Positions 38,721-63,607 of a stretch of 64,000 nt of DNA are shown piece by piece (the first letter of the stretch is position 1; each line of letters starts with the position of its first letter). This DNA comes from Solirubrobacterales bacterium. GTDB taxonomy: Bacteria; Actinomycetota; Thermoleophilia; Solirubrobacterales; 70-9. Below the pieces are notes generated by a model. It saw only the letters and a program-made list of their open reading frames with translations, was not told the origin of the DNA and searched no databases. The DNA is taken from assembly GCA_025450195.1 (NCBI GenBank), contig JANWHW010000021.1:1-64000 (forward strand), given 5' to 3'. The translations under genes were made by a program, and so were the position numbers.

Positions 38721-39728
38721 TTAAAAGCCTGGCGGGTGGCGCAGCTCGAAGCGTGCGAGATAGCCCGCGTCGAAGGTGCTTTCGGGAATCCAGCCGGGGC
38801 CGTGTCCGGGTTCCACAAAACCCGACGTGCCCCAATAGCGTTTGTTCGGCGGCGTCACGCCGGGCATGAACTTGAGAACCGTGTGCGCTTCGGGTTCGTA
38901 GGGCTTGACGAGAATCGTCACCCACTGGCCCGGTCCCGGTTCGCCCCAGGTGGAGAGGGCGACGGTATCCATCGTCGGGTTCTTGAAGCCCCCGACCTGA
39001 AGTAGATGGCTGACTGCCGAGCTGCAATCGAAGGGGCCGTTGGGCGGCGTGGGGGTGAGCCCGTGCGAACCGCCCCAGACATATTCGGTCGTCGGCCGAA
39101 GCTGGCTGAGCCGTTCGGCCTCGGCGACCATCTTGGCGACCCGTTCGTTCGGGGCCGACACTTCGCAGCTCGCCATCGCCGCTTCGGTCGAGCCGATCCC
39201 CGACCATTTCTCGGCGTCGGCTAGTACGTCTTCGACGTACCAGTCGGCATGGTTGTAGGCGAAGATCGCGCCGTGCCAGTCACCCGGCGCCCCGCTGTAG
39301 CGGAGCAGGCGGGCGGCGGCAAAGATCGCATCCCAAGGGTTGTTCGTGTCCTTGATCCCGTCGCCGTTGCCATCGACGCCGAACGCTTCCCAGCTCGACG
39401 GTAGGAATTGCATCCACCCTTCTGCTTCCGCGCTCGACACGCCGAGGTCGGCTCCGAACCTCGTCTCCTCCCAATTGATTCCCGCCAGGATCGACGGCCC
39501 TTTCGGGCCAAGCCGGTATTTCGCGGCGGCCTGCTGGTAAATCGGGATCAGCTTCGCCGGGACTCCCTGCACGTCGCCGGTCGCCGCGCTGGCGCCGCCG
39601 CAGGCGCTCGCGCTGCCGCCGAATACGGCGGCCAGGGCGACGGCGCCGCAGATCAGCGCCAAGAGGGCCGCGAAGGGAACGGCGAGCAGGAGGGTCGAGA
39701 GGCTGCGGCGGTCAGTCTGCGCGGGCAT
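38721..39728 (-). CDS. VirB1-like transglycosylase with C-terminal NlpC/P60-like domain
   Basis: A 335-residue exported cell-wall hydrolase. A TM/signal segment (residues about 10-36) is followed by an SLT-type muramidase domain: SILAGINWEETRFGADLG with the catalytic Glu, SAEAEGWMQFLPSSWEAFGV and DTNNPWDAIFAAARLLR. The C-terminal half contains PFDCSSAVSHLLQVGG, the DCS box with nucleophilic Cys of NlpC/P60 endopeptidases, but the later His is less clear. Conjugative elements of Gram-positive bacteria use such bifunctional enzymes to open peptidoglycan for the mating channel. It is divergent from the sigma/T4SS operon. Confidence 0.85.
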   Translation of the reverse strand: MPAQTDRRSLSTLLLAVPFAALLALICGAVALAAVFGGSASACGGASAATGDVQGVPAKLIPIYQQAAAKYRLGPKGPSILAGINWEETRFGADLGVSSAEAEGWMQFLPSSWEAFGVDGNGDGIKDTNNPWDAIFAAARLLRYSGAPGDWHGAIFAYNHADWYVEDVLADAEKWSGIGSTEAAMASCEVSAPNERVAKMVAEAERLSQLRPTTEYVWGGSHGLTPTPPNGPFDCSSAVSHLLQVGGFKNPTMDTVALSTWGEPGPGQWVTILVKPYEPEAHTVLKFMPGVTPPNKRYWGTSGFVEPGHGPGWIPESTFDAGYLARFELRHPPGF

Positions 39729-39806
39729 CGCACAGTGACCGTCAAGAGCTAGGGGTCAGCGCCCCTGGAAATACCTTTAGCGCTGAGGCTTCAACTCAAC
39801 AGATAT

Positions 39807-39878: not shown

Positions 39879-41039
39879 ATGAAGGCCACGGCTGCCAACG
39901 CGAAGCAAGGGGTAACGGGCGCCCAGATGCGCGAGGCCGAACGCGGCCTGAAACTAATGCTCCGTGCCAAGTTTCCGAGGGTCTGGATCAACGAACACGC
40001 GGCCGAAGTTCTCGGGCAAGCGAACGTCGAGTATCAGGAATGGCTGGAAGACAACCCGCCAGCCCGGAACCCGGTTGGCTGGCTGCTGACCTGCGCCTAC
40101 CGGCGGGCTCTGAACCTCCGCGACTCCGAAAGCCGGAAGCCGACCCCGGCGTCCCTTGACAGCGTGTTTCACGTCGCGGACGAAGCGACGCCGACCCCCG
40201 AACAACAAGCGCTCGATCACGACCGCCAGAATCGTCTTCGAGAGGCGCTGAGCCACCTTCCTGACAAGGAGGTCAAGCTGCTGTCGCTCGTCTACTTCGA
40301 GGACAACTCGATCAGGGAGGCGGGCCGAAAGTTGGGGTGGCAGAAGTCGGCCGCCGATCGGCATCACGGCACCGCCCTGGAAAAACTCCGGGCGCTGGTC
40401 GGGGACGATCGAAGCCTTTTCAGCCCGGCGACGCTCGGCCTCGCCGCCTACCTCGCTTCGAGGGGTCGAGTCTCGCGCTTCATCGACGCCGTGCGCCGAT
40501 CCGTGGTGGAACTGGCGCGCACGCTCTCGCCGTTCTCCGACGCTGGTACGGCGGCGGCGAACAGCGGCGTAGGCCGAGCCGTTGGCGTCTGCGGTGCGGG
40601 CATTGTGGCGGCTGTGTGCGTCGGCGCCGCGACGATCGTGGCGCCCGGCCTGAACGGCGCCCCTCACGCGAAGCCGTCGCCTGCGCGCCAGATCAAGGGA
40701 CCGATCCGCCAGGGGGCCACCGCCCCGACCGGCGCGCTGGCCCCGGAACTGCCGACGCTGCCCAGCTCCAAAACGACCGAAGTGGCGGGGCCGTCCAAGC
40801 CGACGAGGGCCGAACAGCAACGGTCTTCCCAAAAGCAAGCGAAGGCGTCCCGCACCCCGCGAGCCACGCATAAGCAAGTCGAAGAAAACTTCGGGCTCGA
40901 CAGTGGCTCGGGCTCCTCCGAAGCGACGCCCGAACAGGAACCCGAATCGACGCCGGAAGCCGCGCCGTCGTCGCCAACCTCCTCGCCGGAATCGTCGCCC
41001 AAGGCTCCGACCTCGCCCAGCAAGGAGTTCGGTCTGTAG
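39879..41039 (+). CDS. Membrane-anchored sigma-70 family factor of the ICE
   Basis: ATG 39879 follows AGGGAAAC; the frame opens earlier (39807) but within the structured leader. The product has 386 residues. Residues 20-85 form a region-2-like helical domain (PVGWLLTCAYRRALNLRDSE). Residues about 115-176 form region 4 (LREALSHLPDKEVKLLSLVY, SIREAGRKLGWQKSAADRHH). One TM segment follows at about 234-256 (VGVCGAGIVAAVCVGAATIV), then a 130-residue Pro/Ser/Glu-rich tail ending SKEFGL. The topology puts sigma domains inside and the tail outside. It heads the T4SS gene run and probably controls transfer genes; release by proteolysis is a hypothesis. Confidence 0.8.
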   Translation: MKATAANAKQGVTGAQMREAERGLKLMLRAKFPRVWINEHAAEVLGQANVEYQEWLEDNPPARNPVGWLLTCAYRRALNLRDSESRKPTPASLDSVFHVADEATPTPEQQALDHDRQNRLREALSHLPDKEVKLLSLVYFEDNSIREAGRKLGWQKSAADRHHGTALEKLRALVGDDRSLFSPATLGLAAYLASRGRVSRFIDAVRRSVVELARTLSPFSDAGTAAANSGVGRAVGVCGAGIVAAVCVGAATIVAPGLNGAPHAKPSPARQIKGPIRQGATAPTGALAPELPTLPSSKTTEVAGPSKPTRAEQQRSSQKQAKASRTPRATHKQVEENFGLDSGSGSSEATPEQEPESTPEAAPSSPTSSPESSPKAPTSPSKEFGL

Positions 41040-41262: not shown

Positions 41263-41283
41263 AAATCTCCGGGGGCGTTTGCC
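41263..41283 (+). promoter_or_regulatory. CGGGGGCG box upstream of the T4SS operon
   Basis: AAATCTCCGGGGGCGTTTGC lies about 65 bp before the pilin-like gene. The same block, with one change, is at 53871-53891 (minus strand, before the relaxase gene), and a close variant is at 63311-63330 (minus strand, before the large secreted protein). Confidence 0.6.
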
Positions 41284-41343
41284 GTCCCCGTCTGCCGTTC
41301 CCCGCATGGCCCACATGCAGGCAACGGACAAGGAGACGGGAAC

Positions 41344-41664
41344 GTGTCACTTCTACAGCTAGGCAAACTGCAATTGCTCGAAGTCGTTGCGGCGGTCAAC
41401 GTCGCCCCGAACCCCAGCGGGATACCGGGCGGGGACGCGGCTCAGAAACTCATCAACGGCGGCGCTGCCTTCGGGCTCCTCGCCTGCGTCGCCACGGTGA
41501 TCCTCGGGGCGGCTCAGTGGGGGTTCGGCAGTCGCTCTAGTAACTACTCGCAGGCCGACGATGGGAAGACCCGGATGCTCAAGGGCGTCGGGGGCGCCTT
41601 CGGGATCGGTGCCGCTGCGGCGGTCATCAACTTCTTCTTCAACGCCGGTTCGGGAGTCCACTAG
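41344..41664 (+). CDS. Small two-TM protein, VirB2/pilin-like
   Basis: A 106-residue protein starting at GTG 41344 after AAGGAGACGGGAAC. Two hydrophobic helices, AAFGLLACVATVILGAAQWG and GGAFGIGAAAAVINFFFNAG, are separated by a polar loop (SRSSNYSQADDGKTRMLKGV). A preceding segment could be cleaved. Size, topology and first position in the T4SS run fit a VirB2/TrbC-like pilin subunit; sequence similarity alone would not prove this. It is followed after 2 bp by the VirB8-like gene. Confidence 0.65.
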   Translation: MSLLQLGKLQLLEVVAAVNVAPNPSGIPGGDAAQKLINGGAAFGLLACVATVILGAAQWGFGSRSSNYSQADDGKTRMLKGVGGAFGIGAAAAVINFFFNAGSGVH

Positions 41665-41666
41665 CG

Positions 41667-42320
41667 ATGCGCCTCGCGCTCGCGGTCCTCCTCGCGGTGG
41701 TGGTTGGCCTGGTCGTCGGGCGCGTCAGCGCGCCCACGGCTGTTGCTGTTTCTCCCCAAGCCGTTTCCCCCTCACCCGGCCCTACCAGCAAGTCGGTCGG
41801 TGTGGGGGTCGGCTTCTCTCGCACCCGACAGGGGGCGATTCTTGCCTCGGGCAGCTACCAGCAAGCGTTCGCCGACGCGGCGATCCTGCGGCCTGGCGTC
41901 CTCCGTCGCCGAGTCGAAGTGGTGGCGACGCCGACCTTCGCGCCGACGATGTTGGCGGCGAACGAACCGGGGACGGCCCAGCTCGCGCAGGGAGCGTTCG
42001 GCGAAGGTGTCAGGGCGGAAGTCCAAAGCGCTTTCTTCGGCGTCCCGGTGTCCTACCGGGTTCTCTCCTACTCGCCGAGCCGGGCGGTCATTCGGACCTG
42101 GGGCTTCACGCTCTTGGGGAACGTCGATGCGGTCGAACCGACGGCCTTTTTCGGGCTCGCTCGAACCGTCTTGGTCTGGATGGACGGCGACTGGAAGATC
42201 GCCGACACGCGGGCGTCCTTCGGGCCGACTCCGCGCCTTGGCACGCCGCGCCCCGGCGGCGAAGGGCTCGGCCTGGTCGAACTGACGAAGGAGCTGCATC
42301 GCTATGGCGTGGCTCCGTAG
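41667..42320 (+). CDS. VirB8/TcpC-like T4SS protein (NTF2 fold)
   Basis: A 217-residue protein with one N-terminal TM (LALAVLLAVVVGLVVGRVSA), a Ser/Pro linker and an extracytoplasmic domain of about 150 residues. The end of that domain, ARTVLVWMDGDWKIADTRAS, matches the last strand pair of NTF2-like VirB8/TcpC proteins. VirB8-type proteins assemble the inner-membrane platform of the conjugation channel. The gene overlaps the next by 17 bp. Confidence 0.72.
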   Translation: MRLALAVLLAVVVGLVVGRVSAPTAVAVSPQAVSPSPGPTSKSVGVGVGFSRTRQGAILASGSYQQAFADAAILRPGVLRRRVEVVATPTFAPTMLAANEPGTAQLAQGAFGEGVRAEVQSAFFGVPVSYRVLSYSPSRAVIRTWGFTLLGNVDAVEPTAFFGLARTVLVWMDGDWKIADTRASFGPTPRLGTPRPGGEGLGLVELTKELHRYGVAP

Positions 42321-44025
42321 GGCGGCCGTTGTCGCCGTGGCCGCCGCCGTCCTCGCGGCGGCGCTCACCCTCGCCGATCCGGCGCCGCCGGAAGCGAAGG
42401 CGAACGTCGTCTGTGAAGTCGGCATCTCGCCCGCTGCCACGGTGGCCGGGGCGATCGGGATCGGCAATCCGGTCGGCGATGCCTGCGACGCGCTGACCGA
42501 AGGCGTCCTCGGCGTTGCGGGCAAGGCCCTCGATCCGCTCAAAGAAGCGGCGGCGTCGCTCAGCAAGGGGGTGTTCAACCAGATCACGACGTGGGCGACG
42601 GACGGCGCGGTGTGGTTGCTCGGCGAAGTGGTCGAACTCACCGAGAAGACCACTTCGCCGGACCTGCTCAGCAAAGGCTTCCTGCGCCAGTACAAAGCGA
42701 TGGCGGCGATAGCCGTCGTGCTGGCGCTCCTGATGGTGCTGTTCGCCGTGTTGGAGAGCCTGGGGCGCGGCGACGCCGGGATGCTCTGGCGCGTCTTCCT
42801 CATCAACGTGCCCGTCGCGGCGATCGCGACGAGTGCTGCCTACGTCGTCGTCCAGCTCTTGATCGCGACGACCGATGGCTTCTCGGAAGCCATCGCGCAT
42901 TCGACGGCGAACGACACGCACGCCTTCTTCAAGGGCGCGGTCGAAGCGCTGGCGGAAGCTGGCGGGGACGCCGGGGCGGCTGCCGGGACCGCGACCGGCG
43001 GGCCGGTTCAGGGGGCCGCGACGGGTGCGGCGGCGTCAGTGGAGGTGCCGTTGTTCGTCGGCTTCATCGCCGCGATCGTCGCCGCCTTCGCGGCGTTCTT
43101 GGTGTGGATCGAGCTGTTGATGCGCGACGCGGCGATCTACGTCGTCGCGCTCTTTATGCCGATGGCGATTGCGGCCTCGATCTGGCCGCGATGGATTTCG
43201 GCGCTGCGCCGCACCGCCGAGCTGACGATCGTGATCGTCTTCTCGAAGTTCGTCATCGTCGCGATCATCGCCCTCGCGGCGAGCCTTCTGGCTCACAACG
43301 AAGGCAAGGTCGAGCAAGTCCTAGCGGCCGGGGCGCTGCTCCTGCTGGCGTCGTTCTCGCCGTTTGTGCTGTTCAAGCTGGTGCCGTTCGCCGAGGGTGC
43401 GGTCAGCTCTGCCTACAACCGTCAGAGCGCGGGGGGCGCCTCCGTCCAAGCGATCCATACCGCGTCGTCAATCCAGATGATGCGGGGATCGGCGCGCGCC
43501 AATTGGGCCGGTGCCGCCAAGGGCGGCGGCGGCGCAGCTGGCGCGAAGGGCGGCGGCGGTAGTCAGGGCAGCGGGGGCGCCTCGAACGGGCGCCCCGGCG
43601 GCTCGGGCGGGGGCGGCGGCGCTGGTGAGGCTGCCGGGGCGAGCGGCGGCGCTGCGGGCGTCGCCGCGCTCCCGGTGGCGGCCGGGGTCGGCGCCGCGAA
43701 GGGAAGCAAGGCGGCGGGCGAGCGCTTGGCCGGGTCCGGCACGGGCCAGGCCAGCGCCGAGGCTGGCAGCGGCTCGGCTAGCGCGGGCAGCGGCACCGCG
43801 ACCGGCGCCGCCGAGCCCGCGCCGCGTCCGGCTGTCGAGCAGAAGGCATCCGGCGGACAGGGCGGCGGGGGCCAGCAAGCGACCCCACGGCCGGGCTCGA
43901 CGAGCCCCGTCGAGCCTGCCGACGCGGCAGGCGGCGAGGCGCCGGGCGCGGGCTCAAAACCCCCGCGCCCGACCGGCGCCGCCAGCTCGCCGAGTAAATC
44001 GACGCCGACGAAAGGCAAGTCGTGA
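42304..44025 (+). CDS. VirB6/TrbL-like polytopic T4SS protein
   Basis: A 573-residue protein with a signal-like N-terminus. About six TM helices lie between residues 135 and 370 (AMAAIAVVLALLMVLFAVLE, FVGFIAAIVAAFAAFLVWIE and others). A long cytoplasmic-type low-complexity tail follows, rich in Gly/Ala/Ser/Pro (about 390-573). VPLFVGFIAAI and AIYVVALFMPMAIAASIWP resemble VirB6/TrbL/SCO6881-type proteins that form the translocation pore. The tail is probably disordered. The stop overlaps the next GTG start (GTGA). Confidence 0.82.
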   Translation: MAWLRRAAVVAVAAAVLAAALTLADPAPPEAKANVVCEVGISPAATVAGAIGIGNPVGDACDALTEGVLGVAGKALDPLKEAAASLSKGVFNQITTWATDGAVWLLGEVVELTEKTTSPDLLSKGFLRQYKAMAAIAVVLALLMVLFAVLESLGRGDAGMLWRVFLINVPVAAIATSAAYVVVQLLIATTDGFSEAIAHSTANDTHAFFKGAVEALAEAGGDAGAAAGTATGGPVQGAATGAAASVEVPLFVGFIAAIVAAFAAFLVWIELLMRDAAIYVVALFMPMAIAASIWPRWISALRRTAELTIVIVFSKFVIVAIIALAASLLAHNEGKVEQVLAAGALLLLASFSPFVLFKLVPFAEGAVSSAYNRQSAGGASVQAIHTASSIQMMRGSARANWAGAAKGGGGAAGAKGGGGSQGSGGASNGRPGGSGGGGGAGEAAGASGGAAGVAALPVAAGVGAAKGSKAAGERLAGSGTGQASAEAGSGSASAGSGTATGAAEPAPRPAVEQKASGGQGGGGQQATPRPGSTSPVEPADAAGGEAPGAGSKPPRPTGAASSPSKSTPTKGKS

Positions 44026-45521
44026 GTGGCGGGCGGCGCTACCGCTTCGGGCCGCTAGAGCAGCGGGGCGTAGTCGGCCCGTTGCGGCTCGGCCAGGTGG
44101 CGGTTCTCGCGCTATCGGCGGCGATCGGCCTGGGGGCGCTCTATGCGCTCCGAAGTTGGCTCGGCCTAGCCGTCGCGATGTTGATCGTCGGCGGTGCGGC
44201 TGCCGTCGTCGTCCTGCCCTTCGAGGGCCGGACGTTGGAGGCGTGGGCGCCGCTCGGGATTCGCTGGCTCTTGCGATCCCGCGAGGAAAAGCGCGGCTAC
44301 CGATCGCGGGCGCCGAGGGCCGGGGTCCGGCCCGGCGCCGAGGGGCCGGTCGTCTGCGAGGCATCCTTGCCCGACGAGCTGGCGGGTCTTCGGATGCTCG
44401 AAGTGCCCTATGGCGCCGATCAGGTCGGCGTCATTCGCGATCGGGCGGCGGGCACCTACACCGTCGCCATCGCGGTCAGGGCGGGCGCCTTCGGTCTGCT
44501 CGACGCCGCCGAGCAGGAGCGGAAGCTAGACGCCTGGGGGTCGGTCCTCGCGAGCCTCGCGAGGGACGGGAGCCCGGTGCGTCGGCTCCAATGGATCGAG
44601 CGCACCTTGCCAGCTCAGGGCGACGAGCTGGCGGGCTACCTCCAAGGGGAGCGCGACCGAGCGGTGCCGATGGACTCGGGCCTGGTCGCGTCCTATATCG
44701 AGCTGGTCGAGTCGGCGGCCCCGGCGACTCAAGACCATGAGATTTTGCTGGCGCTACAGATTGACGAGCGCCAGGGCGCTCGCGAGCTGCGCCGCATGGG
44801 GGGCGGGGAGGGGGCCGCCTGCGAGCTGGCGCTGCGCGAGGCCGAGAACCTTGCGGAGCGCCTGTCGATCGCCGAGGTAACGGTCTTCGGGCTCCTGCGC
44901 CCGCGCCGTTACGCCGAGGCGATCCGCGACGCCTTCGATCCCTTCGGGCGCCAGGGCCGGGCGCGGGCCGCGCTCGGCGATCCCGACCGCGAAGGCGTCG
45001 ATCCGGCTCTCATGGGGCCGGTCGCCGATGCGACGAGTTGGAGTGCCTACCGAACCGACTCAGCGCACCACGCGACGTTCTGGATCGCGAGCTGGCCGCG
45101 CAACGACGTCGGCCCCGCCTTCCTCACGCCGCTGCTGATGCAGACCACCGCGCTCCGCACGGTGTCGGTCTGCATCGAGCCGATCGGGCACTCGATCGCG
45201 ATCCGCAAAGCCGAGGCGGCGCGCACCGCCGAGGTCGCCGACGAGCTGCAACGCGAACGGCAGGGCTTTATGACGACGGCGCGCATCCGTCGCCAGCAAC
45301 AAGCCGCCGCCCGCCGCGAGGAGGAGTTGGCAGACGGGCACGCGGAGATGCGCTTCGCGGGTTATGTCACGGTGTCGGCGTCGAGCGCGCCTGAGTTGGA
45401 GCGGATCGCTACCGAGGTCGAACACGCGGCGGCGCTCTCGCGGCTAGAGCTGCAACGGCTCTACGGCGAGCAGGATGCGGGCTTCACCTTCACGCTGCCG
45501 CTCGGGCGGGGGCTGCGGTGA
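44022..45521 (+). CDS. SCO6880-family T4SS protein
   Basis: A 499-residue protein. YRFGPLEQRGVVGPLRLGQV at the N-terminus and two adjacent TM helices (residues about 28-70) are the signature of SCO6880-like proteins, which combine a VirB3/PrgI-like membrane anchor with a region equivalent to the N-terminal domain of VirB4. Further matching segments are VGVIRDRAAGTYTVAIAVRA and HHATFWIASWPRNDVGPAFL. It is expected to work with the ATPase encoded next; the two overlap by 4 bp. Confidence 0.82.
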   Translation: MSGGRRYRFGPLEQRGVVGPLRLGQVAVLALSAAIGLGALYALRSWLGLAVAMLIVGGAAAVVVLPFEGRTLEAWAPLGIRWLLRSREEKRGYRSRAPRAGVRPGAEGPVVCEASLPDELAGLRMLEVPYGADQVGVIRDRAAGTYTVAIAVRAGAFGLLDAAEQERKLDAWGSVLASLARDGSPVRRLQWIERTLPAQGDELAGYLQGERDRAVPMDSGLVASYIELVESAAPATQDHEILLALQIDERQGARELRRMGGGEGAACELALREAENLAERLSIAEVTVFGLLRPRRYAEAIRDAFDPFGRQGRARAALGDPDREGVDPALMGPVADATSWSAYRTDSAHHATFWIASWPRNDVGPAFLTPLLMQTTALRTVSVCIEPIGHSIAIRKAEAARTAEVADELQRERQGFMTTARIRRQQQAAARREEELADGHAEMRFAGYVTVSASSAPELERIATEVEHAAALSRLELQRLYGEQDAGFTFTLPLGRGLR

Positions 45522-46819
45522 AGCTGCTGAGGCGCCACGGCTACCGGGGGGAGCGCCCCGGCCACGCGGCGACGACGGCGCACTTCCAGGCGGCCTATCC
45601 GTTTCTGGCCGAGGGCGGACTAGGCGCCCCCGGCGCCTACGTCGGCCGCGATGCCTGCGGCGGCGCTTGGGTCTTCGACCCCTGGGCGGCATACGAGGCG
45701 GGAATCCTCTCGGGGCCGAACATGATCGTCGTCGGCCAGCTCGGCCGGGGCAAGTCGGCATTCCTCAAGACTTACATCGCCCGCCAGCACGTATTCGGAC
45801 GCCAGGCGTGGGTACTCGATCCAAAGGGCGAGTACGCGCCGCTGGGGACCGCGCTCGGGTGGCCGCCGATCGCTCTCGTTCCGGGCGGATCGGTTCGGCT
45901 GAATCCGATCAGTTCGCGGCTCGGACGTGAGGGGCAACTGAGCCTCTTGCGCTCCGTCGCGGCGGCAGCGCTGCGCCGCGAACTGACCCCGGAGGAGGAC
46001 GCCGGGGTGCGGGTGGCGCTCAAGGTCGTTAGCGCCGCTGAGCCCGACGAGCCGACGCTGCCCGAAGTCGTAGAGGCGTTGCTGCATCCGGTCGATGCGA
46101 TGGTGGCCGAGTTGGTGATGAGCGTCGGCGATTTCTCCGACGCGACGCGGCAAGTGGCGCTCGCGCTGCAACGACTCTGCGAGGGCGATCTGCGCGGCAT
46201 GTTCGACGGGCCGACGAGCGCCGGGCTTGATCTCGACGCGCCGTTTGTCGTCCTCGACCTGAGCGCCGTCCAAGAGTCGGCGGCGCTTGGAATCCTGATG
46301 ACCTGCGCCGCCGCTTGGCTGCAAGGCGTCGTCATGGAGCGCAAGCGCTCCGCTGAGGCGGGAGAAGGCGCCGGGGCGAAGGTGATCGTCGCCGTTGACG
46401 AGGCATGGCGGATCACCGCCGATCTGGGCGTCGCCGAATGGCTGCAACGCTCCTTCAAGCTCTCCCGCGCCCACGGCGTGCAGAACATCATCGCCCTGCA
46501 TCGCCTCTCGGACCTGGGCGCCGCCGGGGCGCAGGGCTCACGCGAGGCGAGGATCGCCGAGGGCCTGATCGCCGACGCGGATACGAAGGTGATCCTGGCG
46601 CAGCCGCCCGATCAGATTGAGGGGCTGCGGAACTTGCTCGGGCTGAGCGCGACTGAGGCTGAATTGGTGCCGACCCTGCGGCGCGGCGAGGCCCTGTGGC
46701 TCGTCGGTCGCCGCTCGTTCCTCGTCCAACACCGCCTTAGCTCGATCGAGCTGGGGCTAGTGGACACGGACGCTCGGATGGTCAGCCACCCGGAGCTGAT
46801 CGGCGGGGCCGCCGAGTGA
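45518..46819 (+). CDS. VirB4-like T4SS ATPase
   Basis: A 433-residue ATPase starting at GTG 45518. Walker A is MIVVGQLGRGKSAFLKTYIA (about 70-85), followed by WVLDPKGEYAPLG, typical of VirB4/TraC-type ATPases. Walker B is AKVIVAVDEAWRI and the later HGVQNIIALHRLSDL is also conserved. The N-terminal VirB4 domain is carried by the preceding SCO6880-like gene, so this is the catalytic half of a split VirB4. The stop overlaps the next GTG start by 4 bp. Confidence 0.9.
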   Translation: MKLLRRHGYRGERPGHAATTAHFQAAYPFLAEGGLGAPGAYVGRDACGGAWVFDPWAAYEAGILSGPNMIVVGQLGRGKSAFLKTYIARQHVFGRQAWVLDPKGEYAPLGTALGWPPIALVPGGSVRLNPISSRLGREGQLSLLRSVAAAALRRELTPEEDAGVRVALKVVSAAEPDEPTLPEVVEALLHPVDAMVAELVMSVGDFSDATRQVALALQRLCEGDLRGMFDGPTSAGLDLDAPFVVLDLSAVQESAALGILMTCAAAWLQGVVMERKRSAEAGEGAGAKVIVAVDEAWRITADLGVAEWLQRSFKLSRAHGVQNIIALHRLSDLGAAGAQGSREARIAEGLIADADTKVILAQPPDQIEGLRNLLGLSATEAELVPTLRRGEALWLVGRRSFLVQHRLSSIELGLVDTDARMVSHPELIGGAAE

Positions 46820-48267
46820 GCGGGGCAGCGGTCGTCGTCGCGATCGGGCTCGGGGGCGTCGCCCTGGTCGTGCATTTGCTCGATCGGCATGTGCGCGAAG
46901 GGGGCAGCGCGAAGCGCCGCCGCGTGCAAGGCGCCCAATGGGCGAGGAAGCGCGACCTGCGCCCGCTGCGGGTTGGGGCGCCAACGCCGGGGCGACTGAT
47001 TCTCGGTCGCCAAGGTCGGCACCTTCTCGCCGCCGAGGACCGCGCATCGGTCGTCGTCGTCGGACCAAGCACGATCAGTCTCAAGACGACCGGCTTCACG
47101 ATCCCGGCGACGCTGGAATGGGATGGGCCGGTCGTCGTCACGTCAGTCAAGAGCGATCTGCTGCTGACGACGATCGAGCGCCGACGCGAACTCGGCAAGA
47201 CGATGGTCTTCGATCCGACCGGCGCGACCGGGATCGAATCCGTCAAGGCGACCCCGCTTTCGGGTTGCGGGAGCTGGCGGGGGGCGATGCGGGTCGCGCA
47301 TTGGCTCGCCAGCTCGGCCCGGTCGGGCGGGTCGAGTGGCCTGGAGGACAGTGATTTCTGGTTCGCGGCGGCGGAGAAGCTGTTGGCGCCGATGCTCTTT
47401 GCCGCCGCCGTCAGCGGCGGCGAGATGGCCGACGTGATCCGCTGGCTGAACGACGGCGCCGAGGCTGAGCAAGAGGTCACGGGGCGACTGAGCGAGGCTG
47501 GATCGGATGACGCGCTGAGTGCGTGGAACGCGAACTGGAACCGCGAGGAACGTCAGCGCAGCTCGATCTACACGACTGCGGAGACGATCATCGGCGCCTT
47601 CGCCGACCCTCGCGTCCTCGACGCGAGCTCGGGCGCCGACTACACGCCCGCCGAGCTGCTGGACGGCCGCTCGAACACGCTCTACCTCTGTGCGCCCGCC
47701 CATGAGCAGGAGCGGTTGCGGACGGTCTTCGCGGCGATGATTTCCGAGCTGGTTTCGGTCGTCTACGAGATTTCGGCGCAGACCGGGAAGCCGATCGACC
47801 CGCCGCTCTTGATCGTCTTGGACGAGGCGGCCAACACGGCGCCGACGCCGGACCTCGACGTGATCGCCTCGACCGGGGCCGGACAGGGAATCCAGCTCGT
47901 CACGGTCTTTCAGGATTTGGCGCAGATCGAATCCCGGTACGGGAAGCGGGCGCCGACGATCCTCAACAACCATCGCGCCAGGGTCTTCGCGTCGGGCATT
48001 GGTGACCCCGACACCCTCAACTACATAAGGCAGGTGACTGGCGACGGCGAGTTTCGCCAGCGGAGCGAGACTGCCGGGGACAAGGGCCACGGCTCGGCGA
48101 CGGAGGGCAGCACCTATCGCGACCTTGCGCCCGCCAACGTCGTCCGCGAGGCGGCGCCGGGAACGGCGCTGCTCGTCTACGGGCACTTGCCAGCGGCACG
48201 GCTCTCGTTGCGTCCTTGGTTTGCGGATCGCGACCTGAGAGAACTTGTCGAGGGCGGCCCGGCGTGA
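46816..48267 (+). CDS. TraG/VirD4-like coupling ATPase with a degenerate P-loop
   Basis: A 483-residue membrane protein with one N-terminal TM. The TraG/VirD4 landmarks are FTIPATLEWDGPVVVTSVKS and SDLLLTTIERRRELGKTMVF, DFWFAAAEKLLAPMLFAAA, Walker B DPPLLIVLDEAANTAPTPDL, and VTVFQDLAQIESRYGKRAPT. The Walker A region (about residues 83-92) reads GPSTISLKTTG, where GPxxSGKTTG is expected: the Gly before Lys is Leu and there is one extra residue. It would link the relaxase-DNA complex to the channel. Coupled to neighbours by GTGA overlaps on both sides. Confidence 0.85.
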   Translation: MSGAAVVVAIGLGGVALVVHLLDRHVREGGSAKRRRVQGAQWARKRDLRPLRVGAPTPGRLILGRQGRHLLAAEDRASVVVVGPSTISLKTTGFTIPATLEWDGPVVVTSVKSDLLLTTIERRRELGKTMVFDPTGATGIESVKATPLSGCGSWRGAMRVAHWLASSARSGGSSGLEDSDFWFAAAEKLLAPMLFAAAVSGGEMADVIRWLNDGAEAEQEVTGRLSEAGSDDALSAWNANWNREERQRSSIYTTAETIIGAFADPRVLDASSGADYTPAELLDGRSNTLYLCAPAHEQERLRTVFAAMISELVSVVYEISAQTGKPIDPPLLIVLDEAANTAPTPDLDVIASTGAGQGIQLVTVFQDLAQIESRYGKRAPTILNNHRARVFASGIGDPDTLNYIRQVTGDGEFRQRSETAGDKGHGSATEGSTYRDLAPANVVREAAPGTALLVYGHLPAARLSLRPWFADRDLRELVEGGPA

Positions 48268-48794
48268 GTGCGGAGCAATCCTGGGGCGCGGATACGGTCG
48301 CCTTCGGGCGCCCACGGGAGGCGGCCCCGGTGGAGGAACCGCCGCGGCGACGGCCGCCACGGGGGCCGCGGCCTAGACGACGCCCCCCAACGACTCGAAC
48401 CCTCGCCCTGGTGGCGGGGGCGATCGGCGTCGGGGTGCTGTTGGTCGCGATCGTCGGTGGGGGGTCGGGATCGCCATCGCCAGCGGCGCCGATCCGCGAA
48501 GTTGCGGATCCAGCGCCGCGAGTCGTCGTGAAGGCGACGCCGACGCATCGGCGTCGACGCGCTCTTGGCGAGCATCGGAAACCCGCCCTCAAGCGCCAGC
48601 CGAAAGGCCAGCTCGAGGAAGGGGAGCGCGAGCCCAAGAAGGCGAGCGCGAAGCCTCACGAGCAGGCCGCACCCGAACCGGCGCCGGTCGCGGAAGCCGA
48701 ACCGGAACCGATCGTGGAACCAACCCCCGAACCGCCGCCGGTTGTAGAACCGCCGCCGGCGCCAACGCCGCCGGCGGCCGAGTTCGGCATGTAG
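48264..48794 (+). CDS. Single-TM protein with Pro/Glu-rich tail
   Basis: About 176 residues from GTG 48264, overlapping the coupling-protein stop. A basic Pro-rich cytoplasmic arm (RRRPPRGPRPRRRPPTTRT) is followed by one TM (LALVAGAIGVGVLLVAIVGG) and a charged, then Pro/Glu-rich extracytoplasmic tail (EPEPIVEPTPEPPPVVEPPP) ending AAEFGM. The architecture recalls TonB/VirB10-like spanning proteins, but no conserved domain is visible. The C-terminal Glu-Phe-Gly-hydrophobic ending is shared with the ICE sigma factor and the next gene. Confidence 0.65.
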   Translation: MSAEQSWGADTVAFGRPREAAPVEEPPRRRPPRGPRPRRRPPTTRTLALVAGAIGVGVLLVAIVGGGSGSPSPAAPIREVADPAPRVVVKATPTHRRRRALGEHRKPALKRQPKGQLEEGEREPKKASAKPHEQAAPEPAPVAEAEPEPIVEPTPEPPPVVEPPPAPTPPAAEFGM

Positions 48795-49672: not shown

Positions 49673-50005
49673 TGCCGCTCCTTCTTGGGAAGGCACCCAC
49701 CCGATGCGGGAGCCGGGAGCCTCAAGACGCGCGCACGAAGGGCGCGCAAAAATCAGGCTGAGGACTCCGCTCCCGCATCGGTGGGTGAATCAACGTGGGG
49801 ACCGTGGCCGTCCACGCCACGCCTTGCCGCAGTCCGGGTAAGGAGCCTGGACCGATTTCGAGGAAAGGCGCTCATGCCCGAAACGTCAGGTCGCCGACCG
49901 AATCGCCCCCGGCAATTTGGTGTCTGAGGAGAAGCCGGGTAGAAAAGACTGCGACGGTCGGCGTCCCGGCATCGACCGAATTGCCCGACGAAAAGGAGCT
50001 GCCCT
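49673..50005. other. Intergenic region with weak CGGGGGCG box
   Basis: No gene was found. On the minus strand 49901-49919 reads CAAATTGCCGGGGGCGATT, a weak relative of the box at 41263 and 53871, oriented towards the small minus-strand gene. AAAAGGAG just before 50006 is the ribosome-binding site of the next gene. The rest has no recognisable feature. Confidence 0.35.
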
Positions 50006-50623: not shown

Positions 50624-53600
50624 TTAGCGGCCGATCGTCGGGGCGTTGCTGACTGCCCGTTGCGCGCCGTGATCGGCAGCGCGTCCTAGACGACGCTGCG
50701 CGTTCTCGATCCGGCGTTGGGCGCGGGCCCGCTCGGCTCGCGCCGCAGCGCCGCGAGGTTGTTGGCCGAGCGGGTGAGACTCGTCGTGTACGTCGTAGCG
50801 ATGGCGGTAGGTGGCGATCGTGTTGGCGGCGTCGCCCCACGCGAAAGCCTTGGCCGGATCGCTGGCCGGGAACGGGCCGAGGGTGTCGTAGATGATCTGG
50901 GTGGGATCGAGCTGAGAGGCACGTACCTCGCGCCGCGCATTCCGCTCGATCGTCGCCTCGACCAATACTGCCTCAAGCCGGGTGATCGGATCGAGGGATG
51001 AATTGGGCTCGGTCGTCGGGGTCGGCTCGGGTAGTCGCGCCAGCTCCGCGAGGTCGCGGCGCAACTGCTCGGCCTGCGCGGCTTCGCCTGTCCTCACTCG
51101 CGCTAACTCGTCCGCTGGCGGGTGCTTCATCGCTTCGATCGCCTCGCGCTCGCGGGCGAGGCGGCTGACCCATTCCTCGCCGTCTTTGATCGCCCGCTCA
51201 AGGCGATCACGGCGGCTCAACTGAGGGTCGGCAGCGCGGGCGGCGACAATCAGCTCGGCGCGACGTTCGGCCAGCACCTTCGAGCTGAGGTTCTCGATCC
51301 GCTTCCGCATCGGGGCCTCGGCGGCGGCGTACTCGTTGCCCTCGCGCTCGATCGCGGCGCGTATGTCGTGCAGCTCGTCGCTGACCTCGCGCCGACCGGG
51401 GCCAAGGTCGGCGTCGGTCAGCTCTGAGGATGCGACGGTGTAGACGTTCGCGACCTCCCGGCCCCGGCTGAGCGCGACTAGCTCCTGCTCAAGACTGGCG
51501 CCAGAGTCGAGCAGAGGATAGGCGCGGTCAACGGTTTTGCCCTGTGCCCCGAACTTGGTCAGCGCATAGGCGTATTCGAGGGCCGGGCCGCCGTTGTCGG
51601 TGCGCCGGTCAAGATAGGCGGCGCCGAGCGTGACCGTCCGCTCGTCGCCGCCTACGCGGCGCAGGGTGATCGTCCGGGCGGCGGCGTCGGCCCCGGTCAC
51701 GTCCCAGCGCTCGCGGTTGGTGACGCCTTCTCTGTTGAGCCGGGTTTGGACTCGATCGCCAGCGGCGAAGGCGCGCTCGCCGACGATGACCTCGACGACG
51801 CCGAGCGCGCCTTGCTCGCGGCGAAGTTCGCGAGCCTGGTGGTTGAGGTCGTCAACGTCATGGTTACGCCGGGCGATCATCACGGCATCGGCGCCGGTTG
51901 CGAAGTCGTGATGCCAGTCGGCGAGCATCCCGTCGAGCGCGGCAGGCAGATCGTCGGCGACGATCAACTGCCCTCGCGTCCGCAGAAGGTCAAGCGCCTC
52001 CGAGCCGCGACCTTCGTAGACGAGAGCGATGAGTTGGCGATCCTCCTCGCGCCGCTGGCGGTGGATGATCGTTAGCGTCGTCGCCTTCACCGCTCGGGTC
52101 AGGTAGCCGTAGAGGCCGCCGGGGCCGACGGCGCCGATCTGCTTCGGGTCGCCGATCACGACGAGCTTGCCTTCGCACTCGACGGCGAGGAAGCGCAGCG
52201 CCTCAAGGTCGGGCGTCGAAGTCGTACTCGCCTCGTCCACGATGATGACCGTGCCCCGCGCCAGCGGCATGACCCCTTCCTCGCGCAGCTTGTCGGTGCG
52301 GTTCAGCAGCGCCCGGATCGAGGTCGCATTGCTGATCCCGGCGTCGATCAGCTCGCCGCTCGCGGTGCGGGCGGTGGCGCAGCCGATGACCGGGAACCCG
52401 TCCGCGTCCCATGACTCCTTCGCCGCCTTCAGCGAAGTGGTCTTGCCGGTCCCCGGCCATGCCGCGACCGGCACGACCTGCTCGCCGCTCGTCGTCAGCC
52501 GGACGACCATTTGGCGCTGATCGGCGTCTAGGTAGGGGTGGCGTTCAAGGGCGGCGGCGAGGGTCGCGGGGGAGACTTCCGCGACTCCGGCATCGGTGCC
52601 ACCAAGCGCGCCGTCGATGAAGTGGCGCTCAAGCTCGGCGATGCGCGGCGTCGTGTAGTAGTCGAAGTCGAGCGGGTCGTCAGATGCGTAAACGCAGATG
52701 ATCCGATCGGTTGCGAGTAGCCGATCGACGGCCGCCGTGATCGCCGGGAGGTCTGCGCCCTCGGGGAGCTGATCGCCGATCGCCCACAAGAGGGCGCGGC
52801 GGTCGAAGTGGGAGGACGTGTCCTCCAACTTCGCGAGCGCCGCGTCAAGCGCGGCGTCGCCGACCTGGCGCGGCTCGCGGGGGCGAGCATTGGCGACCAT
52901 CCCGGCGACGCTCTCGGGGGTGATTCCGAAGGGCGCGGTCTGCTCGATCCACTCGCCCCGGCGGTCGTCTTCATCGACGCCGTAGTCCTTCTTGTCGCGG
53001 GTCCGGTAAGCGGCGGTCTGCTTGGCCGCGATGGTGTCTACGCCGTGCTGCTCAGTCCACGCGGCAATCTCCCGCGAGCGCGTGCTGAGGGCTTCGATCA
53101 CGTCGCGGCCGAACCCTTTGAGGTCGGCGTAGCCGTTCGTGACCGCCTCGAACTCCAAGCCGAACTCCCGCAGGAACTCGCTCCGAAGTGCGGCCTGGAA
53201 GACGACGCCCGCAGACTTGCCGTGAGGCCAGAGCGGGGAGCGTCCTTTCGGGCTTGCAAGGCTCAACCATTTGCCGTCACTGACGGCGCGGGTGAGGTTG
53301 GAGATAACGACGTGGACGTGAAGGGCGGGGTCGCCAGCGCGGCTCATCCGGTGGCGGAAGGCCATCCCAGTGAAGCCTTCGCCGCGCTCCAACCGTTCGC
53401 CGCCCTTGCCTCGCTGGACAAAGCAGGCTTCATGCTCAAGGTGAGAGAGGCCCTGGCGCACCGCCTCGTTCATCACGGCCAACACGCGCTCCCGCGTCGC
53501 CTCGTCGCCGAGCGCGTAGAGGATCGAGACAGACTTCGGCGCCGAGAATCGAACGTCGAATCCCAAGACGGGCTCGACGCGCTTTTCGGTCCCATCGGCA

Positions 53601-53845
53601 CGCTTGCGATAGCGGGTGTCAGGGCGCTTGACGAGCTGGTCGCCGCTCGTCGGATTGCGGCCCTCAAGGATGGCGCTGTAGCCCTCGGCGTCTACCTGGC
53701 CGGACAGGCCGAGGTCGGCGGCCAGCTCGCCGATCCACTCGCCCGGCGCCTCGCCGGGCTTGTTGTAGTAATCGTCGCCGCCTTCGGCGACGGCGGCAAG
53801 CCAGTAACCGGCGTTGCCGCGCTGAATCTTCGTGACCCCGACCAT
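50624..53845 (-). CDS. MobF-family relaxase-helicase (TrwC/TraA-like)
   Basis: A 1073-residue conjugative relaxase. Relaxase domain: catalytic tyrosines in GGDDYYNKPGEAPGEWIG (Tyr26-Tyr27), GFDVRFSAPKSVSILYAL, and the metal-binding histidines in FRHRMSRAGDPALHVHVV (about 165, 176, 178). Helicase domain: Walker A VAAWPGTGKTTSLKA (about 461-475), Walker B VIIVDEAST (about 533-541), IGDPKQIGAVGPGG, and C-terminal YAYALTKFGAQGKTVDRAYP. The end (850-1073) is a charged coiled region. It nicks oriT, stays bound to the 5' end and unwinds the transferred strand. The likely oriT lies just upstream. Confidence 0.93.
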   Translation of the reverse strand: MVGVTKIQRGNAGYWLAAVAEGGDDYYNKPGEAPGEWIGELAADLGLSGQVDAEGYSAILEGRNPTSGDQLVKRPDTRYRKRADGTEKRVEPVLGFDVRFSAPKSVSILYALGDEATRERVLAVMNEAVRQGLSHLEHEACFVQRGKGGERLERGEGFTGMAFRHRMSRAGDPALHVHVVISNLTRAVSDGKWLSLASPKGRSPLWPHGKSAGVVFQAALRSEFLREFGLEFEAVTNGYADLKGFGRDVIEALSTRSREIAAWTEQHGVDTIAAKQTAAYRTRDKKDYGVDEDDRRGEWIEQTAPFGITPESVAGMVANARPREPRQVGDAALDAALAKLEDTSSHFDRRALLWAIGDQLPEGADLPAITAAVDRLLATDRIICVYASDDPLDFDYYTTPRIAELERHFIDGALGGTDAGVAEVSPATLAAALERHPYLDADQRQMVVRLTTSGEQVVPVAAWPGTGKTTSLKAAKESWDADGFPVIGCATARTASGELIDAGISNATSIRALLNRTDKLREEGVMPLARGTVIIVDEASTTSTPDLEALRFLAVECEGKLVVIGDPKQIGAVGPGGLYGYLTRAVKATTLTIIHRQRREEDRQLIALVYEGRGSEALDLLRTRGQLIVADDLPAALDGMLADWHHDFATGADAVMIARRNHDVDDLNHQARELRREQGALGVVEVIVGERAFAAGDRVQTRLNREGVTNRERWDVTGADAAARTITLRRVGGDERTVTLGAAYLDRRTDNGGPALEYAYALTKFGAQGKTVDRAYPLLDSGASLEQELVALSRGREVANVYTVASSELTDADLGPGRREVSDELHDIRAAIEREGNEYAAAEAPMRKRIENLSSKVLAERRAELIVAARAADPQLSRRDRLERAIKDGEEWVSRLAREREAIEAMKHPPADELARVRTGEAAQAEQLRRDLAELARLPEPTPTTEPNSSLDPITRLEAVLVEATIERNARREVRASQLDPTQIIYDTLGPFPASDPAKAFAWGDAANTIATYRHRYDVHDESHPLGQQPRGAAARAERARAQRRIENAQRRLGRAADHGAQRAVSNAPTIGR

Positions 53846-53870
53846 CGTGGGGGAGTCGTCAGGACGGCAG

Positions 53871-53891
53871 GGCGAACGCCCCCGGAGATTT
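53871..53891 (-). promoter_or_regulatory. CGGGGGCG box upstream of the relaxase gene
   Basis: On the minus strand this reads AAATCTCCGGGGGCGTTCGC, differing in one base from the box at 41263-41283, and lies about 25 bp before the relaxase start codon. It also overlaps the edge of the oriT candidate. Confidence 0.6.
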
Positions 53892-60881: not shown

Positions 60882-63146
60882 CTAGGGCAATACTCGCAAA
60901 GGCAGCGAGCGCGAGTTGCCGCCTTCGTAGGGGTAGCCGCTCTGAGCGCGAACCTGCGCCCGCATGATGTACGTCGTCGGCGTCGTCGTCTGCGTGAAGC
61001 GGTAGCGCATTGAGTAGTGCCCGCCCGACTTGGTGCGGTAGGCCCGGAAGACCCGCCAGCTCTTGCCGTCCTTGACTTGGAGGACGATCACGACCTTGGC
61101 GTTGTCGGGGCCGGGGACGGTGCCAGTGAACACCGCGAACCCCATGTTGTGAACGACCTTGCTCCGCAGCTTGAAGGTCGGCCGGACCTTCGTGCGGAGC
61201 ATGGCGTCGGCCGCCAGCTCCCGTTGATCGGGGCGATAGACGACGGTGACTTCTCGCGACGGCCCGGCACCGATCGCGAACTGGTAATCGCCGCCGTCGC
61301 CGGTCATGGCGACGCCAAGGAACTTCCGTTCCAGATCCGTCACCACCTTGCTGAACACGCAAAGGGGCGCGTTGGAGAGCTGACCGGCGCCTTTCAGCGT
61401 GCCGCTCAGGGTTGATCCCTGACCGTCGTGGACGACGACGGAGCTGTCGGCCTTCTTGCCGAGGCCAGCACTCAGGGTCAGGCCACCCGTCACGTCTGAG
61501 CGCACGCAGTCGTAGGAGAGCGGCGCTTTGACCGGCGCCCCTACGTTGCCCTCCTCGTCCGACAGCCAAAGCCGCAGCGTGTAGGAGCCGCGTTCACGCG
61601 GACCTTCGAGATTCTGGATCGTCTGCGGGTTGGTGCCGCTGATGTTCTGCGTCGGCACAACCACGTCGCCAGCACCGTTCAGCACTTGGTAGTGGACGGC
61701 GCTGATCGGCGAACCCGTATCGGGAATGTTGCGCCAGCGAACATCGAAGCCCTGGTCGGAGCGGGCAGTCGTCGGGGTCGTGACCGAGAGGTCTTGGGGC
61801 GCCGCTGGCGGGGTGGTGTCGTGAGGGATCGCCGCCGTCGTCGCGGGGCCGGTAAAGCCGACTTCATCCTCTAGCCAAACCCTGAGCTGGTAGGCGCCGG
61901 GGACTTTCGGCCCTTCGATTTTCGCGAGTTCGGTCGGGTTGACGCCGGACACGACTTTCTCCGGCACGACGACTTTGCCCGCCGCGTCGAGAACGTCGTA
62001 GTGGACCTTGGTGATTGGCGATCCGGCGTTCGGCGGCAGCGAGAATTGTGCGCCGAAGTGATCGAGGTAGCGGGCCGGATTTTCGCTCGTCACCCGTAGA
62101 CCGCTGGGCGCCCCCGGCGGGGTGTTGTCCGTGTGGATAGCTCGCTGATCGCACGATTCCGAGCCGGTCCCGTTGAGGCCGATGTACTGGCCGTAGTCCT
62201 GGGTGCAGGCTTGGAGGGTGTGCGCGCCGTCCGCAAGGCTCGCGGTGTTGAACGTGTAGGCACGGTTGATGCCGTCCGCGTTTGGACACGGCTGAAAGGC
62301 GCGAGCGAACGGCCCGTTGGATGCCGAGGCATCGGTGTTGCATTCGCCGGTCGCCTGGTGGTCGATGTTCCAGCGTTCCGCGCCGTCGATGCGGATTCGC
62401 TCGAAGCGAATGCCCGACCCATGCTCGTTCCACACGAACGTCGCCGTCTGATTTCCCCGGACCCAGCCGCCGGTCATAAGCGGCGAGCCGTTGGTCAATG
62501 CGACCTGCGAGTTCTGATCGTCTTCCAAGGTGAAGACGAACGTGTTGGCGTCGGTGGAGTTAAAGTTGCTCCGGTCGCAACCGGACGGCCGGACGCACTC
62601 CAATTCGAAGGCGAAGCGCCAGAAGTCAGCGTTGCCGCCGGGCCAAAGGTGGGGCGAGAACGTCGGGGTCATTCCGATGCCGAGGCCCTGATTGGAAATC
62701 TCGAAGCCCTGGTTGGCGAAGTTGATGCCCCAGAAGCGGGATCGCCAGCCTTCGTTGAAGGCATATGCCTCTCGCTGCCAGCCGCCCGCCGTCTTGTAGT
62801 GGACGTAGGCCGGGGTGTCCCAGTAGATGAATCCGCTTGCGCCTACCCCGGCATTGCCGCTGGGCTGGTTCTCGCTGATCCGAAAGAAGGCGCTATCGCC
62901 CGCCGGATCGGGAGCTGGCCCGCAGTAATTTTCAAAATTGAAAATCCCTCCGGGGTTCTGCGGACTCGTCGTGTTCGTGTAGGTGCCGTAGGCATTCGAG
63001 CCGTTGTTGCCCGCGCACAGGACCATCTTGTATTGAGCTGCGTGTGCGGTTGCCGCGAAGACGACCGCAACGGCCATGCACAGCAGGATTCCGAATAGCG
63101 CTATCGCGGCCGGGTTTCGCCCCGGCCCGCTCGATCGAGAGGACAT
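60882..63146 (-). CDS. Large secreted protein with Fn3/Ig-like repeats
   Basis: A 754-residue exported protein. The signal peptide (IALFGILLCMAVAVVFAATA) ends at about AHA-AQ. The N-terminal 300 residues form a Cys-containing beta domain (CGPAPDPAGDSAFFRISENQ, ASGFIYWDTPAYVHYKTAGG, FAFELECVRPSGCDRSNFNS). Next come two Fn3/Ig-like modules introduced by DNTPPGAPSGLRVT and DTTPPAAPQDLSVT, each with SPI(T/S)(K/A)VHY and V(S/P)G-type strands, and a C-terminal beta domain. Such proteins are typical of Solirubrobacterales surfaces. In the ICE it may act as an adhesin during mating. A CGGGGGCG box lies upstream. Confidence 0.75.
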   Translation of the reverse strand: MSSRSSGPGRNPAAIALFGILLCMAVAVVFAATAHAAQYKMVLCAGNNGSNAYGTYTNTTSPQNPGGIFNFENYCGPAPDPAGDSAFFRISENQPSGNAGVGASGFIYWDTPAYVHYKTAGGWQREAYAFNEGWRSRFWGINFANQGFEISNQGLGIGMTPTFSPHLWPGGNADFWRFAFELECVRPSGCDRSNFNSTDANTFVFTLEDDQNSQVALTNGSPLMTGGWVRGNQTATFVWNEHGSGIRFERIRIDGAERWNIDHQATGECNTDASASNGPFARAFQPCPNADGINRAYTFNTASLADGAHTLQACTQDYGQYIGLNGTGSESCDQRAIHTDNTPPGAPSGLRVTSENPARYLDHFGAQFSLPPNAGSPITKVHYDVLDAAGKVVVPEKVVSGVNPTELAKIEGPKVPGAYQLRVWLEDEVGFTGPATTAAIPHDTTPPAAPQDLSVTTPTTARSDQGFDVRWRNIPDTGSPISAVHYQVLNGAGDVVVPTQNISGTNPQTIQNLEGPRERGSYTLRLWLSDEEGNVGAPVKAPLSYDCVRSDVTGGLTLSAGLGKKADSSVVVHDGQGSTLSGTLKGAGQLSNAPLCVFSKVVTDLERKFLGVAMTGDGGDYQFAIGAGPSREVTVVYRPDQRELAADAMLRTKVRPTFKLRSKVVHNMGFAVFTGTVPGPDNAKVVIVLQVKDGKSWRVFRAYRTKSGGHYSMRYRFTQTTTPTTYIMRAQVRAQSGYPYEGGNSRSLPLRVLP

Positions 63147-63607
63147 ATCTCTTGTCTCCTTCTTCGTGCCGATCGGGCTCAGGGACGGCGCGATGGCCGC
63201 CCCTCCTCACCGCCGGGGGCTCGCAACCTGCGATGCCGCCGAGGGGAGTGGGCGTTCCGACGATCTGGCTATCTGTGACCACTATCACCGGAATCCGTCA
63301 AAAGATGCGAGGGAACGCCCCCGGATATCTGTTTAGTTAGGAACGGTGGAGGATTTGGGGTGCTTTTGGAGGGATTTGCACCGATTGCACAGGGTCCGTG
63401 CGAGGGCTAATGCCTGCACCCGGCCCCTTTTCGCTCCGCTCGGACCTGAGCTTGGAGCCGCCGCCGGGGCTGTGGTGGCCGACATTTGCAACCCCGGCGG
63501 CGGCTCGAAGCCCGGCTCTCCGGGGCGGCGGGGGCGACTGATTCCGCCGGTTCGAGAGGTACGCTTCTAGAAGAAGCGAGTCGTGAGGTTCAGCGATTCG
63601 AGCTGTG
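63147..63607. other. Right-end intergenic region of the ICE with palindromes
   Basis: There is no gene. It contains the ribosome-binding site AAGGAG of the secreted-protein gene; the box at 63311-63330 (minus: AGATATCCGGGGGCGTTCCC); a 15-bp perfect inverted repeat GAGCCGCCGCCGGGG (63455-63469) with 63492-63506; a GCCCGG/CCGGGGC hairpin next to it; and CGCTTCT-AGA-AGAAGCG (63562-63578). These lie just inside the right attachment repeat. Confidence 0.6.

Follow-up and report, generated by a model that had tools for sequence, protein, structure and literature searches.

The window analysed here is a stretch of 64,000 nucleotides from a Solirubrobacterales bacterium (assembly GCA_025450195.1, contig JANWHW010000021.1, positions 1 to 64,000 of the forward strand), which carries a conjugative element with a type IV secretion system (T4SS) operon and a relaxase gene. 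Upstream of the operon and divergent from a gene for a cell-wall hydrolase lies a sigma factor gene (Table 1), whose product joins sigma domains to a hydrophobic segment and a long tail. An earlier reading of the DNA letters, hereafter the original prediction, had proposed that this protein is held at the membrane and switches on the transfer genes, an interpretation that the present analysis partly supports.

Domains, hydrophobic segment and tail of the sigma factor

Translation of 39879-41039 on the plus strand gave a protein of 386 aa with the C-terminus SKEFGL, as originally read. The proposed sigma region 2- and region 4-like domains were recovered by profile searches, with matches to TIGR02937 (47.6 bits, cut-off 42.9, residues 40-171) and to Pfam Sigma70_r4 (28.8 bits, cut-off 24.1); with Pfam alone, region 2 was below detection. 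AlphaFold, run on a shallow alignment of the window protein and five homologues, predicted confident helices forming a sigma-2-like (residues 14-85) and a sigma-4-like (107-174) part, and sigma factors of the extracytoplasmic function (ECF) type were the top matches of this model in the PDB. The protein has regions 2 and 4 without region 3, which is the composition of ECF (group 4) sigma factors. Past residue 196 the confidence of the model was low. The profile search gave no zf-HC2 match, the linker from sigma-4 to the hydrophobic segment contains neither Cys nor His, and no anti-sigma gene was recognised among the annotated neighbours, all consistent with the original view that a separate anti-sigma factor is dispensed with.

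Profiles run over the order, class and family of the window genome recovered 11 full-length members of the sigma factor family, all within the window's own Solirubrobacterales family (one in the window, two each in G001, G067 and G085, and one each in G082, G128, G073 and G058). The members are 22-42% identical to the window protein. No close relatives were found by a single-protein peptide pattern in genome contigs or with the family alignment in viral contigs, and plasmid records gave short sigma matches only. All 11 members share the order sigma domains, linker, hydrophobic segment with a Cys pair, and low-complexity tail. The tails cannot otherwise be aligned, but each ends in Phe-Gly (FG) followed by one to three residues, namely EFGL, QQFGGP, QQFGAFK (twice), EFGFEK (twice), QFGL, QQFGLP (twice), EQFGLP and AFGPLP, and several contain a second, internal copy such as SQFGVESS. 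Homologues with the same segment and ending, which the original prediction had suggested seeking at other T4SS loci, are thus found, with FG as the family-wide motif. Compared with this 11/11, only 6 of 685 proteins predicted from 762 kb of stretches, about a third of the window genome, end in this way: three lie in the element, two are acyl-CoA-dehydrogenase-like and lack such tails, and one is a chromosomal sigma factor. Since one to three variable residues come after FG, PDZ-type recognition of a free C-terminal hydrophobic residue is unlikely as the sole mode of binding.

The hydrophobic segment of the window protein spans residues ~236-258, and its best 19-residue stretch, VCGAGIVAAVCVGAATIVA (residues 237-255), has a Kyte-Doolittle value of 2.31. 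By this measure the segment is the top hydrophobic stretch in 10 of the 11 members, the exception being L052, where a stretch after sigma-4 is slightly more hydrophobic. On the biological insertion scale, the window segment is borderline at about +0.4 (family range -0.6 to +2.6). The single transmembrane (TM) helix originally placed at residues ~234-256 accordingly holds up as a conserved hydrophobic segment, but not as a clear-cut insertion. The Cys pair within it has a spacing of 7-10 residues in all members and also occurs in two chromosomal sigma factors. The tail, described earlier as Pro/Ser/Glu-rich and ending in EFGL, indeed has this ending and comprises ~128 residues rich in Pro, Ser, Ala, Thr and Glu. 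As the flanking charges do not decide the orientation, the predicted placement of the tail outside the cell rests on the requirement that the sigma domain be inside.

Neighbouring genes and other FG-ended proteins

The divergent hydrolase (PF13406/PF01464) and the adjoining T4SS genes noted in the original prediction were both recovered by profile matches. The order divergent hydrolase, sigma factor, DUF6112 and 217-aa protein is common to the window, L052, L053, L060 and L061, and the remaining T4SS genes are present in those loci as far as the contig extends; in a variant in G001, a small lipoprotein-like open reading frame (ORF) precedes the divergent hydrolase. In L055, L056, L057 and L059, the divergent genes are of the TcpC/TcpF type instead. 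With both SCO6880-type and TcpC/TcpF-type neighbours, the sigma factor family is associated with two T4SS classes that are unrelated to each other. Loci with an SCO6880-type T4SS in the order's other families had neither the sigma factor family nor FG tails. Near the relaxase of the G082 element (L297:4931-5497, minus strand), a second, soluble sigma-like protein is encoded, which is related to the chromosomal zinc-finger sigma factor. No direct repeat common to the integrase and tRNA-Val sides was found at the element ends.

Table 1. Features of the sigma factor locus and of the conjugative element in the window
Feature	Position	Strand	Basis or remark
Lytic transglycosylase (SLT, cell-wall hydrolase), divergent	38721..39728	-	PF13406/PF01464; conserved in L052, L053, L060, L061
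Element promoter TCCAGGGGCG-N14-TTGACG, before hydrolase gene	39740..39769	-	motif
ECF-type sigma factor gene, predicted membrane-anchored (386 aa)	39879..41039	+	ORF translation, profile matches, AlphaFold
Sigma region 2-/region 4-like domains, residues ~13-174	39915..40400	+	TIGR02937, PF04545, AlphaFold/Foldseek
Putative membrane segment, residues 237-255, with Cys pair (in all family members)	40587..40643	+	hydrophobicity, alignment
P/S/A/T/E-rich tail ending EFGL, internal second FG motif ENFGLDS	40653..41036	+	sequence
Element promoter TCCGGGGGCG-N14-CTGCCG, before T4SS operon	41268..41297	+	motif
T4SS operon	41344..48794	+	profile matches, locus comparison
DUF6112 pilin-like	41344-41664	+	T4SS operon
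217 aa protein	41667-42320	+	T4SS operon
TrbL-like	42304-44025	+	T4SS operon
SCO6880 family	44022-45521	+	T4SS operon
VirB4-like	45518-46819	+	T4SS operon
VirD4/TraG	46816-48267	+	T4SS operon
Post-TraG single-TM protein, P/E-rich tail ending AAEFGM	48264..48794	+	sequence, insertion scale, locus comparison
Element promoter, one mismatch, GCCGGGGGCG-N14-CTGACG, before small minus-strand ORF region	49884..49913	-	motif
MobF-type relaxase	50624..53845	-	PF08751, NF041492
Element promoter TCCGGGGGCG-N14-CTGACG, before relaxase gene	53857..53886	-	motif
Secreted all-beta Ig-like protein (754 aa), family adjoining FG-tailed proteins	60882..63146	-	sequence/profile comparison
Element promoter TCCGGGGGCG-N14-TTGACG, before secreted-protein gene	63296..63325	-	motif

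An EFG-type ending is also present on a second protein of the T4SS operon and on a chromosomal sigma factor. The former, encoded directly after TraG, has a clear TM segment on the insertion scale; its counterparts end in SEFGFER (L052), DAFGPGP (L198) and EEFGFEH (L199), and in three of the four elements this protein and the sigma factor have similar endings. A further window protein of 186 aa (48846-49406) ends in REFGW without a disordered tail; it had no homologue in related loci, and its ending may be due to chance.

Genes for a family of secreted immunoglobulin (Ig)-like proteins lie beside FG-tailed genes, or under the same promoter, in L054, L055, L056, L057, L059, L198, L199, L295, L296 and the window. 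The window member starts with a signal-peptide-like stretch and resembles Ig-like and CarboxypepD_reg-like domains below the cut-offs, while Foldseek returned unspecific matches of the Ig and fibronectin type III kind. In G082, such a gene was predicted to follow the post-TraG gene and was found there (L297:1322-2944, E = 2.4e-119); 979 kb of control sequence contained two matches, including one at L197. At that SCO6880-type T4SS locus, which comes from another family of the order, a different, HTH-like (helix-turn-helix) protein with a TM segment and a P/S-rich tail ending in NDEFDYLGG (L197:2634-3911, minus strand) is encoded next to a member of the secreted family. The window also encodes a probably secreted protein with repeats of ~10 residues (50006-50620, plus strand; direct repeats every 30 nt), relatives of which are encoded close to the gene for the secreted Ig-like protein at several loci.

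The chromosomal sigma factor of the window genome (L289) combines a zf-HC2 match of 40.6 bits with the Cys-pair hydrophobic segment and the ending GEFGP, and a secreted-protein gene follows it. In G003, a further sigma factor carries this C-terminal module but lacks a zinc finger. These chromosomal proteins (L289/L296 in G000, L226/L295 in G003) share with the element family the sigma domains, the Cys-pair segment and the P/E-rich tail, and have in common the EFGP end and the directly following secreted-family gene. They differ in that L289 has a zinc-finger anti-sigma domain and in that no SCO6880-type T4SS was seen beside either. As chromosomal sigma factors of both genomes carry it, the module of TM segment, tail and FG is shared beyond the element, and a partner of the FG motif may be host-encoded.

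Promoter-like sites of the element

Comparison of the regions upstream of the hydrolase, T4SS operon, relaxase and secreted Ig-like protein genes yielded the window motif TCC[A/G]GGGGCG-N14-[C/T]TG[A/C]CG. When the 2.18 Mb window genome was searched with up to one mismatch, four exact sites and one with a single mismatch were obtained, all in the element, and the reversed control gave 0. The family's other genomes contained few exact matches to this motif (four among the matches listed), and matches with one mismatch were common (~3 hits per genome) and uninformative across genomes, so that the exact matches alone carry the claim of exclusivity. Because one of the sites lies between the sigma factor gene and DUF6112, the original view that the sigma factor gene heads the T4SS operon is too simple.

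Across the family, the promoter type consists of an element-specific -35, a spacing of ~15-17 nt and a GACnAn -10. One copy stands before the divergent gene, another in most cases before the sigma factor gene, and a further one ahead of the T4SS operon or the secreted-protein gene. The region between the sigma factor and the divergent gene contains inverted half-sites in eight loci, with a GAC-type hexamer at a constant outward distance. The half-sites differ between elements and are identical within one (CCCATACA, CCGGATAC, TGACGCAA, GTTGGCGG, TGACGCA, CGACGGATTG). Divergent half-sites lie anywhere from 0 to 25 nt apart, whereas the distance from half-site to -10 is fixed; two independent back-to-back promoters therefore fit better than a single dimer operator, and the latter reading of the inverted repeats was set aside. 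A third copy was found before DUF6112 in L052, L053 and L060 and before the secreted-protein gene in L055, L056 and L057; in L061 a diverged third copy was read by eye, and in G001 an extra copy lies ahead of a small gene on another contig (L199). Three sites per locus were counted in six of the seven loci tested and two in the seventh, compared with ~0.01 hits per locus for a permuted -35. Together, 29 sites from nine elements gave the -10 consensus G-A-C-n-A-n. In whole genomes, the exact motif occurred six times in G067, three per sigma factor locus (two loci), and three times in G085, all at the Tcp-type locus. These sites agree with the two-part promoters of ECF sigma factors, which have ~16-17 nt spacing and often precede the sigma factor gene, although the own-gene copy was not recognised in the window.

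Two leader features were also seen. Directly upstream of the sigma factor start in L052, L053, L060 and L061 lies the motif GG[A/G]A[A/G/T]-N12-CGCTA (GGGAG in L053), which encloses a short hairpin whose arms vary between elements and retain complementarity. At 39820-39865 of the window (plus strand), CCCCCG-CTAAAA-CGGGG is followed by TTTCTCATTTTT in an attenuator-like arrangement, and an upstream GGGGG could form an alternative pairing. An Rfam scan of the sigma factor upstream region gave no match.

Candidate mechanism and its alternatives

Membrane-fused ECF sigma factors are already known, including IutY, ECF48, ECF52 and ECF53 (PMC8999054, PMC5826349). IutY of Pseudomonas putida (ECF243) likewise combines a cytosolic ECF sigma domain, a TM segment and an extracytoplasmic part in one polypeptide (PMC5411451, PMC8999054), and it is activated by Prc and RseP (PMC5411451). 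Its periplasmic part is a folded anti-sigma domain, and it has a TonB-dependent receptor and controls iron uptake, whereas the window protein has a disordered tail with an FG end, predicted to be outside, and lies with conjugation genes; its residues 196-386, modelled from a shallow alignment, have pLDDT (predicted local distance difference test) values below 50 and no domain match. Another related type is ECF52 (SCO4117 of Streptomyces coelicolor), which with ECF48 and ECF53 shows the actinobacterial order sigma, TM and Pro-rich tail, and for which autoregulation and proteolytic release have been proposed (PMC5826349, PMC8999054). The chromosomal L289 (sigma, zf-HC2, TM, Pro-rich, GEFGP) resembles this group. 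In the element family, by contrast, the zinc finger and the fused carbohydrate-binding module are absent, the proteins terminate in a short FG motif, and their genes lie with T4SS genes. The window protein in particular lacks a ZAS-type (zinc-binding anti-sigma) zinc finger between sigma-4 and the segment; the segment and tail that would correspond to the TM helix and Pro-rich extracytoplasmic extension of ECF52/48/53 are conserved, and the sequence is compatible with either topology.

What can be read directly from the sequences is the sigma domains, the conserved segment and FG ending, the linkage to two T4SS classes and the promoter-like sites before transfer genes. On this basis, we regard the protein as probably a dedicated, membrane-held ECF sigma factor of the conjugative element, which reads element-specific promoters to switch on transfer genes. 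A single TM helix would anchor it in the cytoplasmic membrane, with its disordered tail outside, and in this anchored state it would be inactive or restrained. In the simplest case, a change at the FG tail, perhaps brought about by the secreted Ig-like protein that the element also encodes, could act as the outside event that leads to tail trimming and intramembrane cleavage and sets the sigma domain free, as shown for IutY. The freed domain would then recognise its own element's promoter type and switch on the T4SS operon together with the genes for the wall hydrolase, relaxase and secreted surface protein. The switch originally proposed thus gains support from the sigma factor with its conserved segment and tail and from the shared promoter type before these genes, and the use of these promoters by the sigma factor is what we infer.

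Several points weigh against this reading. The segment is only marginally hydrophobic, and its flanking charges favour neither orientation. The window motif was derived from the sites that it finds, so that only its exclusivity is independent evidence. The window sigma factor gene has no recognisable promoter copy, unlike eight relatives, and L058, the most divergent member, yielded no recognisable promoter. G073, whose recognition helix nearly matches that of the window protein, has no exact site, its element being cut by the contig end; the rule "same recognition helix, same promoter" was not confirmed there. No protease partner was identified.

In one alternative, the segment would not be a TM helix and the protein would be cytoplasmic, its tail binding a cytoplasmic partner. 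In favour of this, the segment is Ala/Gly-rich with borderline insertion energy, AlphaFold confidence at the segment is low, and the charges in the window protein show either no bias or a reversed one. We nevertheless find this improbable, as segment and Cys pair are kept in all 11 members, a clear TM segment is present in the post-TraG protein that shares the ending, and the candidate secreted partner begins with a signal-peptide-like stretch. It is equally doubtful that the promoter motifs belong to another regulator, be it another sigma factor or a dimeric repressor, and that the membrane sigma factor has a different regulon. The soluble second sigma factor of the G082 element and the operator-like inverted repeats speak for such a regulator; the variable half-site gap at a fixed distance to the -10, the lack of a second sigma factor of the G082 kind among the window ORFs, and the clustering of the motifs at each sigma factor locus speak against it. 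The window protein, unlike the chromosomal zinc-finger sigma factor, has no anti-sigma domain, which would suit a constitutively active membrane sigma factor whose anchoring keeps transfer-gene transcription near T4SS assembly without proteolytic release. A plain tether, however, poorly explains the conserved FG at the far end of the tail and the pairing with a secreted protein, and we judge it no likelier than the other two.

Within the preferred reading of a membrane-held, releasable sigma factor, a more specific version can be put forward tentatively, and we think it less likely to be right than wrong. The FG end of the exported tail would dock on the secreted Ig-like protein, a contact suggested by the gene pairing, and this protein would meet the mating partner or surface; an altered contact would expose the tail to proteolysis and free the sigma factor for the T4SS, relaxase and hydrolase genes. 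In such a split surface sensor, the second FG-tailed protein of the T4SS operon could compete for the same partner, giving feedback, and the chromosomal sigma factors of these bacteria would use the same tail and secreted-protein module.

In a literature search that was not exhaustive, we found no account of a conjugative element under the control of a membrane-anchored sigma factor. New relative to the known fused sigma factors are the missing zinc finger, the dedication to a T4SS with element-specific promoters, and the pairing of FG tail and secreted protein. To our knowledge, little is established about how actinobacterial conjugative elements sense their surroundings before transfer, and the present findings suggest that this element senses something outside the cell before it transfers. 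If so, the entire transfer programme would be coupled transcriptionally to the cell's exterior through a single protein, with the element-specific promoters as a ready readout, and the FG tail and secreted protein would define a directly testable module that chromosomal sigma factors share.
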